Assembly: GCF_947496075.1 (NCBI RefSeq)
Contig: NZ_CANMBJ010000002.1
Coordinates: 744,001 to 808,000, forward strand
Direction: 5' to 3'
Length of the DNA: 64,000 nt
Origin: an uncultured Tateyamaria sp.
GTDB lineage: Bacteria; Pseudomonadota; Alphaproteobacteria; Rhodobacterales; Rhodobacteraceae
This document shows positions 27,240-29,100 of this stretch, piece after piece. Within the stretch, counting starts at the first letter, position 1; the number at the start of each line of letters is the position of its first letter. The position numbers were made by a program, and so were the translations under genes. The notes beneath the pieces were generated by a model. That model was not told the DNA's origin. It saw nothing but the letters and a program-made list of their open reading frames with translations, and did not search any database.

Positions 27240-27275
27240 TCTCCGAACGAGTTTCTTGAATGTGGAAACAAAAAA

Positions 27276-27307
27276 GCGGCGGTCCCCAGGGAGGAGGGGG
27301 CCGCCGC
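27276..27307 (-). ncRNA. CcsR-type hairpin 6 and array terminator
   Basis: Stem GCGGCGG/CCGCCGC with CCTCCTCCCT in the loop on the minus strand. It is followed by six T residues (complement of 27270-27275), so it also acts as the intrinsic terminator of the array. Confidence 0.82.
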
Positions 27308-27321
27308 CTTCGTCATGCCAT

Positions 27322-27345
27322 CCGGTCAGGGAGGAGGAGGACCGG
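27322..27345 (-). ncRNA. CcsR-type hairpin 5
   Basis: Six-base stem CCGGTC/GACCGG encloses CTCCTCCTCCCT on the minus strand, the conserved anti-Shine-Dalgarno-like loop. Confidence 0.8.
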
Positions 27346-27390
27346 TTTGACAATCTCTGCACCGTTTTTGGTGCGGTATTCGTGCGACGA

Positions 27391-27410
27391 CATTCGGGAG
27401 GAGGTGAATG
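27391..27410 (-). ncRNA. CcsR-type hairpin 4
   Basis: Stem CATTC/GAATG with CCTCCTCCC in the loop (minus strand). This copy lacks the A that precedes GGGAGGAGG in the others and is the shortest. Confidence 0.75.
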
Positions 27411-27432
27411 CCGCCGCTCTTGCAACATCGCG

Positions 27433-27456
27433 TCGGTCAGGGAGGAGGAAGACCGA
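27433..27456 (-). ncRNA. CcsR-type hairpin 3
   Basis: Stem TCGGTC/GACCGA encloses the CCTCCTCCCT loop on the minus strand. Confidence 0.8.
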
Positions 27457-27483
27457 AAGTGCGATGTATTGCGGTGTTAAAGT

Positions 27484-27517
27484 GCGGCGACGCCAGGGAG
27501 GAGGAAGGCGCCGCCGC
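27484..27517 (-). ncRNA. CcsR-type hairpin 2
   Basis: Interrupted stem GCGGCG-CGCC with GGCG-CGCCGC encloses the CCTCCTCCCT loop on the minus strand. Confidence 0.8.
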
Positions 27518-27523
27518 CAATTT

Positions 27524-27555
27524 CAGATGCCCCAGGGAGGAGGAGGGGCGATCTG
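27524..27555 (-). ncRNA. CcsR-type hairpin 1 (nearest the DUF1127 gene)
   Basis: Stem CAGAT-GCCCC with GGGGC-ATCTG encloses the CCTCCTCCCT loop on the minus strand; it begins 18 bases after the DUF1127 stop. Confidence 0.82.
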
Positions 27556-27572
27556 ATCCGTGTATTCCTTGT

Positions 27573-27803
27573 TTAGGCTGCGAGGTCGTTCGCAGATTCC
27601 CAAGCCACGCGCTTCAGTTCCGACCGGTGCAGGCCCAAATCGGCCAGTTCGCGGTTGGACAGTGCGTTCAGCTCGGTGAACGTGGTGCGGAAGATGCGCT
27701 GTTTAGCGCGACGCTCTGCAGCAGCTTCAAACACGCGGGCAACCGTGCCGAGGGTACGTTCGACCAGGTCGCTGCGACGTGCTACATCATTGTAATAGGC
27801 CAT
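27573..27803 (-). CDS. DUF1127 protein (CcaF1-like), leader gene of the CcsR array
   Basis: Protein of 76 residues; ATG 27803 is chosen because MAYYNDVARR begins the conserved part, while the upstream extension is unlike the family. The C-terminal TELNALSNRELADLGLHRSELKRVAWESA is the DUF1127 (YjiS) motif, an Arg-rich small domain that in related proteins binds RNA. In Rhodobacter sphaeroides the homologous gene (ccaF1) is co-transcribed with and lies directly before the CcsR small RNAs, which is the arrangement seen here. Stress-regulated expression is therefore likely, though no sigma-32-type promoter could be confirmed by eye. Confidence 0.9.
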   Translation of the reverse strand: MAYYNDVARRSDLVERTLGTVARVFEAAAERRAKQRIFRTTFTELNALSNRELADLGLHRSELKRVAWESANDLAA

Positions 27804-28026
27804 GTTCTTTGCCTCATGCTCGTTTCGTTGACCTGAATATAAGCCAATGCTGCGGGTGCACAATACACACCAATTCAATGCTGCTATGCAGCAATTGCAT
27901 GGGGTTGAGGTCCAAAGCCTAGGCAATGTGCACAAGGATGCGGCGTTTGCTTCGGGGCGGTTTGCAAGCTCTTGTAAGACGCGAAATTTATGCCATTTCT
28001 TTCACCATAAAGCGGGGAAATCGAGC

Positions 28027-29100
28027 ATGGCTGTCACGAAGCAAATTGTTATGGACGCGCTGACGCGCGTGGGAATGCCGGACGGTGGTGATCTGATCAG
28101 CCGAGATTTGATTCGCGCGGTGCAGTTGCAGGGCAATGCCGTGCAGTTTGTGATCGAGGCACCCACCCCGGAGCTGGCGGCGCAAATGGAACCGGTGCGT
28201 GCCGCCGCCGAGGCGGCGGTGCGGTCGTTGGAGGCCGTGGGTGATGTGCGCGTTGCATTGACGGCACATGGACCTGCGAAAAAGCCTGCGGCCCCGCCCA
28301 GCCTGAAAATCGGGGGACATCCAAAGCCACAGGACGGACCCACCAAGCCCACAGGTGTCAAACGCATCCTTGCCATCGGATCCGGCAAGGGCGGTGTCGG
28401 TAAATCCACCGTGTCGTCGAACCTGGCCGTGGCGCTTGCCAAGCAGGGACGCAAGGTCGGGCTGCTGGATGCAGATATATATGGTCCGTCTCAGCCCCGG
28501 ATGATGGGGGTAAACAAGCGGCCGGCGTCGCCCGATGGCAAGACCATCATTCCATTGCATGCCCATGGCGTAACGCTGATGTCCATCGGGTTCATGATGG
28601 AAGAAGGCAAGGCCGTGGTTTGGCGTGGCCCCATGCTGATGGGCGCGCTGCAGCAGATGCTGGGGCAGGTGGAATGGGGCGAGTTGGACATTTTGCTTGT
28701 CGACCTGCCGCCGGGCACCGGCGACGTACAGCTGACGTTGTGCACCAAGTCCGAACTGTCCGGGGCCATTGTTGTCAGCACGCCGCAGGATGTCGCGTTG
28801 ATTGATGCGCGCAAGGCGCTGGACATGTTCGCCACGCTCAAGACGCCTGTTCTGGGGCTGATCGAGAACATGTCGATGTTTGTGTGTCCGGACTGCGGAT
28901 CAGAGCATCAGATTTTCGGCCAAGGTGGTGTGACCGCCGAGGCAGAAAAGATGGGCGTTCCGCTTTTGGGCGCATTGCCCATTGATCTTGAGACACGTCT
29001 GGCCGGGGACGGGGGCACGCCCGTGGCCGTGGGGGATGGGCCGATGGCCCAAGCCTACGCCCGTATTGCAGAAGGGTTGATCAAGGGTGGGATGGCCTGA
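28027..29100 (+). CDS. apbC: Mrp/ApbC family iron-sulfur cluster carrier ATPase
   Basis: Protein of 357 residues from ATG 28027. An N-terminal DUF59 (MIP18) domain (about 1-85) is joined by a Pro/Lys-rich linker to a deviant Walker ATPase domain: [47 protein letters not shown]. The CPDC motif near the C-terminus ([12 protein letters not shown]) holds the bridging [4Fe-4S] cluster in the dimer. It transfers iron-sulfur clusters to apo-proteins. Divergent from the DUF1127 gene and convergent with a membrane-protein gene. Confidence 0.92.

Follow-up and report, generated by a model that had tools for sequence, protein, structure and literature searches.

In Rhodobacter sphaeroides, ccaF1, a gene encoding a DUF1127 protein, is followed by the tandem two-hairpin RNAs CcsR1-4 (Rfam RF02791), which carry CCUCCUCCC in their loops, and by a final terminator. 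Each of these RNAs is described as having two stem loops with an anti-Shine-Dalgarno (anti-SD) motif in each (PMC3927594), and the literature reports co-transcription of the operon, maturation by RNase E and CcaF1, and control by RpoHI/RpoHII. In S. meliloti, NfeR1 (alpha-r14, RF02344) shows three hairpins with the same loop and is encoded by a gene of its own with a sigma-70 promoter; it is activated by LsrB, a VtlR homologue, via a TGCA-N6-GCAT box, and its loops silence target mRNAs in trans by anti-SD action (PMC10746234). VtlR of Brucella activates three DUF1127 genes and AbcR2, and CAATGCAGCCATGCA is given as its binding motif (PMC12595884). LsrB was stated in 2025 to be unique to Rhizobiales (PMC11975290). 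The action of DUF1127 proteins on RNA is debated, and other members of this family have protein partners, as described in PMC12501420.

Here we compare with these systems a locus found in 64,000 nucleotides of a marine bacterium, an uncultured Tateyamaria sp. (contig NZ_CANMBJ010000002.1, positions 744,001 to 808,000), the whole of which is referred to as the window. The array itself is known in kind, and what the sequence analysis adds is the organization of its units and a probable link to an LsrB-like regulator, the second of which we do not claim to be unpublished.

Organization of the locus

The minus strand of the window carries a DUF1127 gene, then six hairpins with CCTCCTCCC in the loop and a T-run at the end, as follows (types A and B are explained below):

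27573..27803, minus strand: DUF1127 small protein, CcaF1-like, 76 aa (PF06568, E 4.7e-10)
27523..27556, minus strand: hairpin 1, type A, loop CCTCCTCCC (folding, orthologue alignment)
27484..27517, minus strand: hairpin 2, type B, GCGGCG stem, loop CCTCCTCCC (folding, orthologue alignment)
27422..27472, minus strand: hairpin 3, type A, loop CCTCCTCCC (folding)
27384..27417, minus strand: hairpin 4, type B, 12 bp, loop CCTCCTCCC (folding; -19.2 kcal/mol, z -4.21)
27316..27352, minus strand: hairpin 5, type A, two stacked stems, loop CCTCCTCCC (whole-region fold)
27272..27311, minus strand: hairpin 6, type B, with the T-run 27275-27270; probable intrinsic terminator

A preliminary description of this DNA had reported six loop-motif hairpins behind the DUF1127 stop codon and a T-run after the last of them, and both observations were confirmed by motif count, folding and the PF06568 match. 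The exact motif occurs six times on the minus strand (27543-27535, 27504-27496, 27448-27440, 27404-27396, 27337-27329 and 27297-27289), a number reached by none of 100 shuffled windows (mean 0.42, largest 3). When the 314 nt from the DUF1127 stop codon were folded as a whole, a free energy of -140.5 kcal/mol was obtained (z -9.55; 0 of 100 shuffles as stable), with every one of the six motifs placed in a hairpin loop. Folded singly, hairpins 1, 2, 3, 4 and 6 were matched in stability by 0 or 1 of 200 shuffles, and the excerpt of hairpin 5, whose outer stem (GTCA/TGAC) had been cut off, by 76 of 200 (z -0.18). The stems had also been described as unrelated in sequence and pairing internally; the internal pairing holds, but hairpins 2, 4 and 6 have the stem sequence GCGGCGGC in common. 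Likewise, the supposed minimal copy at 27391-27410 is rejected, being only the inner part of hairpin 4 (27417-27384).

The loop-to-loop gaps of the array are 30, 47, 35, 58 and 31 nt, and an additional hairpin lacking the CCTCCTCCC motif is present at about 27374-27359. Of the 22 exact motif sites in the whole genome, six are clustered here; each of the remaining 16 is the only one in its 609-base stretch. No second array of this kind was found by an RF02791 search of the genome, which returned only its three matches in the window. Between 25303 and 27181, downstream of the array, the minus strand encodes a sigma-70-like protein of 336 aa along with proteins of 127 and 182 aa, for neither of which Pfam gave a match at E 0.001.

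Relationship to the CcsR and alpha-r14 RNAs

At the Rfam gathering cut-offs, which are curated thresholds of the library and not properties of the RNAs (65.3 bits for RF02791, CcsR1; 58.8 bits for RF02344, ar14), the window yields a tRNA only. Nevertheless, under its cut-off RF02791 matches the window three times, each match spanning two hairpins:

27479..27558, minus strand: CcsR-type unit 1 (hairpins 1 and 2), RF02791 52.6 bits, E 6.9e-12, under the cut-off of 65.3
27379..27467, minus strand: CcsR-type unit 2 (hairpins 3 and 4), RF02791 29.8 bits, E 3.6e-5, under the cut-off
27271..27355, minus strand: CcsR-type unit 3 (hairpins 5 and 6), RF02791 40.1 bits, E 3.4e-8, under the cut-off

Two ar14 matches (43.4 and 41.3 bits) are likewise under the cut-off of 58.8. 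The gathering score of RF02791, not reached in the window, is attained by only 10 of the 295 family genomes; a match at E 0.001 is found in 243 of the 295. Of 14 control genomes, one (Thermus composti) also gives a match, under the cut-off. The assignment is based on anatomy. Adjacent hairpins with CCUCCUCCC in each loop and variable stems, the features of the cuckoo RNAs, are all present, a short DUF1127 gene directly precedes the array, and the three RF02791 matches together with the alternating gaps indicate two hairpins per unit. In 29 of 31 loci inspected by eye, no more than 400 nt separate the end of a DUF1127-like reading frame from the first loop. On sequence grounds, the array is a member of the known CcsR/cuckoo (alpha-r14) RNA family, and of ordinary size within it. 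The earlier placement in this family behind a DUF1127 gene is thus supported by Rfam, the conserved arrangement and the papers on relatives, and the same three lines of support favor its reading of the products as processed small RNAs that would act as anti-SD RNAs.

Like the R. sphaeroides operon, the locus has a DUF1127 gene followed by tandem two-hairpin units and a final terminator, and it shares with the RF02791 consensus the GCGGCG stem in the second hairpin. It differs in scoring under the Rfam cut-off and in the stems of the first hairpin, which are unlike those of CcsR1, and it has three units, against the four of R. sphaeroides given in the papers. With NfeR1 it shares the loop and an upstream LysR box, but its RNAs lie behind the DUF1127 gene instead of being encoded by a separate three-hairpin gene.

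Unit organization and stem conservation

Among the loci listed, 65 arrays with at least three loops, the window included, were compared, comprising 424 hairpins. In the 64 arrays with at least four loops, short (at most 40 nt) and long (41-80 nt) gaps take turns: 241 alternations were counted, and 2000 permutations gave 151 on average and never more than 180. The hairpin types alternate as well, a variable type A with a GCGGCG-like type B. The gaps allowed 368 of the 424 hairpins to be assigned a place in a pair, 184 as first (A) and 184 as second (B); GCGGCG was found in the 5' arm of none of the A and 93 of the B hairpins, and any of eight GCGGCG-like hexamers, a set chosen after the sequences had been seen, in 1 of 184 A and 154 of 184 B hairpins, these counts not being independent because the loci and their tandem copies are related. 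This alternation of A and B hairpins allows arrays to be counted properly.

The stems pair in spite of their changing sequence. Uninterrupted pairing of at least 5 bp is formed by 95% of the 424 hairpins with their own arms, by 33.5% of 2832 combinations of arms swapped within a locus and by 20% with shuffled 3' arms; arm swapping was used instead of a shuffled-flank control, which was uninformative (333 of 424 also gave at least five enclosing pairs). The uninterrupted run of hairpin 6 of the window is 3 with its own arms and up to 8 with those of hairpins 2 and 4, a possible cross-pairing. Compensatory changes, the absence of which in related genomes the preliminary description had regarded as contrary to its reading, are present, though few, in the two hairpins counted, 1 and 2, when 13 orthologous loci are aligned (11 distinct rows for hairpin 1, 10 for hairpin 2). 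In hairpin 1, three pairs are changed on both sides, a number reached by 2 of 500 shuffles, and two of its pairs are not formed in 4 and 5 rows out of 11, respectively, which take a bulged form instead. In hairpin 2, two pairs (90 of 500 shuffles) and five cells (0 of 500) are changed on both sides.

TTTT follows the last hairpin in 51 of the 65 arrays and an internal hairpin in 18 of 359 cases; its location mainly behind the last hairpin fits a single transcript with a single end. A mainly structural role could be envisaged, with the array serving above all as a structured 3' UTR for ending transcription and protecting the DUF1127 mRNA, and with loops that do not act in trans. The proximity of a DUF1127-like frame in the 29 of 31 loci mentioned above and the resemblance of hairpin 6 to a terminator would agree with such a role, but one hairpin suffices for a terminator, the loop stays exact while the stems change, and the same loops silence mRNAs in trans in S. 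meliloti (PMC10746234), and we consider this explanation highly improbable. Loops that act in trans remain the preferred reading.

One candidate processing signal was rejected. AATAC before the A hairpins was considered as an RNase E site; ATAC precedes 87 of 184 A hairpins and 8 of 184 B hairpins, but a simple AU-rich cut site in the long linkers is disfavored by their A+T content (0.41, vs 0.57 in the short linkers).

Number of loops in related loci

Related loci were collected by a DUF1127 protein search, in which at least 205 were confirmed and from which the best 80, all named, were taken; the closest DUF1127 relative among the loci listed is that of Tateyamaria omphalii (96%). In these best 80 of at least 205, exact loops range from 0 to 16 per locus, six being the commonest number (17 of 80) and more than six being present in 20; the 11 Tateyamaria loci among them have 4-6. 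Exact counts miss loops with one changed base, two of which were found, and at L075 and L112 the sequence stops soon after the array or gene. A strict three-loop pattern was detected in 85 of the 295 family genomes, although arrays with wider gaps escape it and the window is scored just once; the 30 loci retained from this search, a set chosen for long arrays, have 3 to 26 loops.

Because CcsR1 is a two-hairpin RNA, the six hairpins of the window correspond to three CcsR-type units, and the previous comparison of "six here" with CcsR1-4 set hairpins against two-hairpin RNAs. With two loops per CcsR RNA, R. sphaeroides should have eight loops. In L142, a family genome with a strong CcsR1 score, there are eight loops, with gaps of 30, 56, 29, 57, 29, 55 and 28 nt. 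Given that six is the commonest number among the best 80 of at least 205 loci and that arrays extend up to 26 loops, no expansion is shown, and the proposed increase in copy number in this lineage was rejected; the ordinary size of the locus settles this point.

The longest array found, L028 (family genome G165:C1, about 334949-336100), has 26 exact loops behind a DUF1127-like gene and consists mostly of near-identical tandem units of about 140 bp, with three hairpins each rather than two. In L124 (Mesobaculum littorinae), with 16 loops, several later units are almost identical in tandem, which suggests a recent duplication of units. At the other extreme, DUF1127 relatives with 0-1 exact loop downstream (L067, L068, L085, L095, L104 and Sulfitobacter L070-L074), several of which keep the upstream box described below, may reflect loss or decay of the array. 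L112 has no loops either, but its contig stops shortly after the gene.

Such variation could indicate a sponge or dosage device, with the length of the array tuning the amount of anti-SD sequence and not its specificity. The identical loops on variable stems and the near-identical tandem units of L028 and L124 would be in line with it, and sequence cannot separate dosage from a set of silencing RNAs, with which it is compatible. However, the difference between A and B hairpins is conserved, which points to something more than dosage, and we regard dosage as a rather unlikely account of the array.

Upstream region

Two elements were identified upstream of the DUF1127 gene:

27876..27890, minus strand: putative VtlR/LsrB-like box TGCATAGCAGCATTG, 13 of 15 positions as in the Brucella motif CAATGCAGCCATGCA, on the other strand
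27837..27863, minus strand: TTG-N17-CTTATAT, possible -35/-10, deduced from a 13-sequence upstream alignment

The spacer of the second element contains a second half-site, GTGCA-N3-GCAGCA. In the upstream alignment the 13 loci keep ATGCANNTGCTGCATRGCAGCATTG, followed by ATTGTGCA-N3-GCAGCAT, before the DUF1127 gene, and TAT lies at about the -10 position in 12 of the 13. For RSP_0557, a CcaF1 homologue, a -35 TTG and a -12 TAT are given for RpoHI/HII (PMC10673084).

The 400 nt preceding each DUF1127 match were searched for the reverse complement of CAATGCAGCCATGCA, with at most three mismatches allowed. It was found in 75 of the best 80 of at least 205 loci, never exact and in 12 of them with one mismatch; none of the 76 control stretches gave a match, the control being empty for four short loci. 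Among the same 80 loci, 61 of the 64 with at least three loops have it, as do 28 of the 29 named genera. In the pattern loci, each from another genus and overlapping the 80-locus set by 3 of 30, it was found in 28 of 30 (control 0 of 30), and in the far windows (n=400) of the loci listed the sole match with at most three mismatches is the true box of L069. A conserved switch site in the promoter was not expected in Rhodobacterales.

Neither of the two other DUF1127 genes of the genome has an array. One of them is preceded, about 125 nt before its first ATG, by a site with three mismatches and without the second half-site, and the other by a site with four; neither was taken as a box, but the first would pass the threshold, which consequently does not single out array operons. 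In the rest of the genome TGCATRGCWGCATTG occurs exactly at one site, at the start of a permease-like frame behind an ABC ATPase (by eye), and this site was also set aside; nothing clear was seen near a one-mismatch TGCATRGCWGCATTG site on C7. On the plus strand, a divergent gene for an Mrp/NUBPL-type iron-sulfur ATPase is located at 27847-29100, its real start being probably near 28026; the conserved box is in the intergenic region common to both genes and could thus control this gene as well.

A candidate LsrB-like regulator

A LysR regulator beside trxB, as in Brucella, was not seen in the genome of the window; by eye, trxB is flanked on one side by an Lrp-type regulator and on the other by a short frame and a cyclase-like frame. 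The regulator was therefore sought among the 47 LysR-type matches of the genome. The LysR L182 (G000:C2:950627-951529, outside the window) is the best of the 47 for A. tumefaciens LsrB (238 bits vs 135 for the next), and is 41% identical to the LsrB of PDB 9HH1, its best solved relative (E 8.9e-70 vs 4.5e-27). The two proteins are each other's best match within the sets compared, 48 of 64 residues of the N-terminal stretch are identical, and the gene is single-copy in 96 of 100 family genomes (E 1e-60). Judged by these comparisons, it is likely an orthologue of LsrB. Unlike A. tumefaciens LsrB, which uses C144-C273, it has one cysteine only, and the disulfide switch described for LsrB is thus not kept.

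The box and this protein make an LsrB-like switch of the operon probable. The locus resembles the Rhizobiales VtlR/LsrB regulon in having a box like the LysR-activator box CAATGCAGCCATGCA at a DUF1127 promoter, as at DUF1127 and sRNA promoters there (PMC12595884), and differs from that regulon of AbcR sRNAs and DUF1127 genes in that the DUF1127 gene and the anti-SD RNAs lie in one run. No report of an LsrB box or LsrB-like protein at a CcsR locus of Rhodobacterales was found in a search that covered other sources than the main papers on these RNAs.

Alternatively, RpoHI/RpoHII alone might switch the operon, the box being a relic or belonging to another LysR; just those factors are named in the available R. 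sphaeroides literature on the operon, and TTG...TAT is present in the window. Compatible as it is with the proposed function of the RNAs, we find this possibility somewhat doubtful in view of the 15-bp box kept in 75 of the best 80 of at least 205 loci and of the N-terminal identity to LsrB. We lean slightly towards the hypothesis that the LsrB/VtlR-like LysR, the DUF1127 protein and the CCUCCUCCC-loop RNAs belong to one ancient alphaproteobacterial stress module, in which the LysR of Rhodobacterales would switch a single operon. If so, one operon would make both an RNA-binding protein and an anti-SD array of variable length, with up to 26 loops, and LsrB would be no speciality of Rhizobiales. 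The link between an LsrB-like regulator and the CcsR RNAs in Rhodobacterales is testable.

Proposed function of the locus

Taken with the described relatives, these observations make it very probable that a Tateyamaria-like roseobacter has its CcsR/cuckoo locus here, with one transcript giving a CcaF1-like protein and three two-hairpin RNAs that silence via their loops. The maturation, targets and control of the array in this organism we infer by analogy. Transcription would begin at a single start upstream of the DUF1127 gene, probably at a promoter read by a stress-type sigma factor and with the help of the LsrB/VtlR-like LysR activator, and would stop at hairpin 6. The CcaF1-like protein would be made from the same transcript as the array, and together with RNase E it may cut between the units, freeing the two-hairpin RNAs. 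Each of these is predicted to expose two CCUCCUCCC loops for pairing with GGAGG-type ribosome binding sites, which would lower the translation or stability of many mRNAs. As candidate direct targets, sites with the full 9-nt complement 3-14 nt before an ATG were considered and, being weak, were not retained; there are six, one of which is the array itself, and three of them precede frames of 200, 470 and 501 aa with putative starts.
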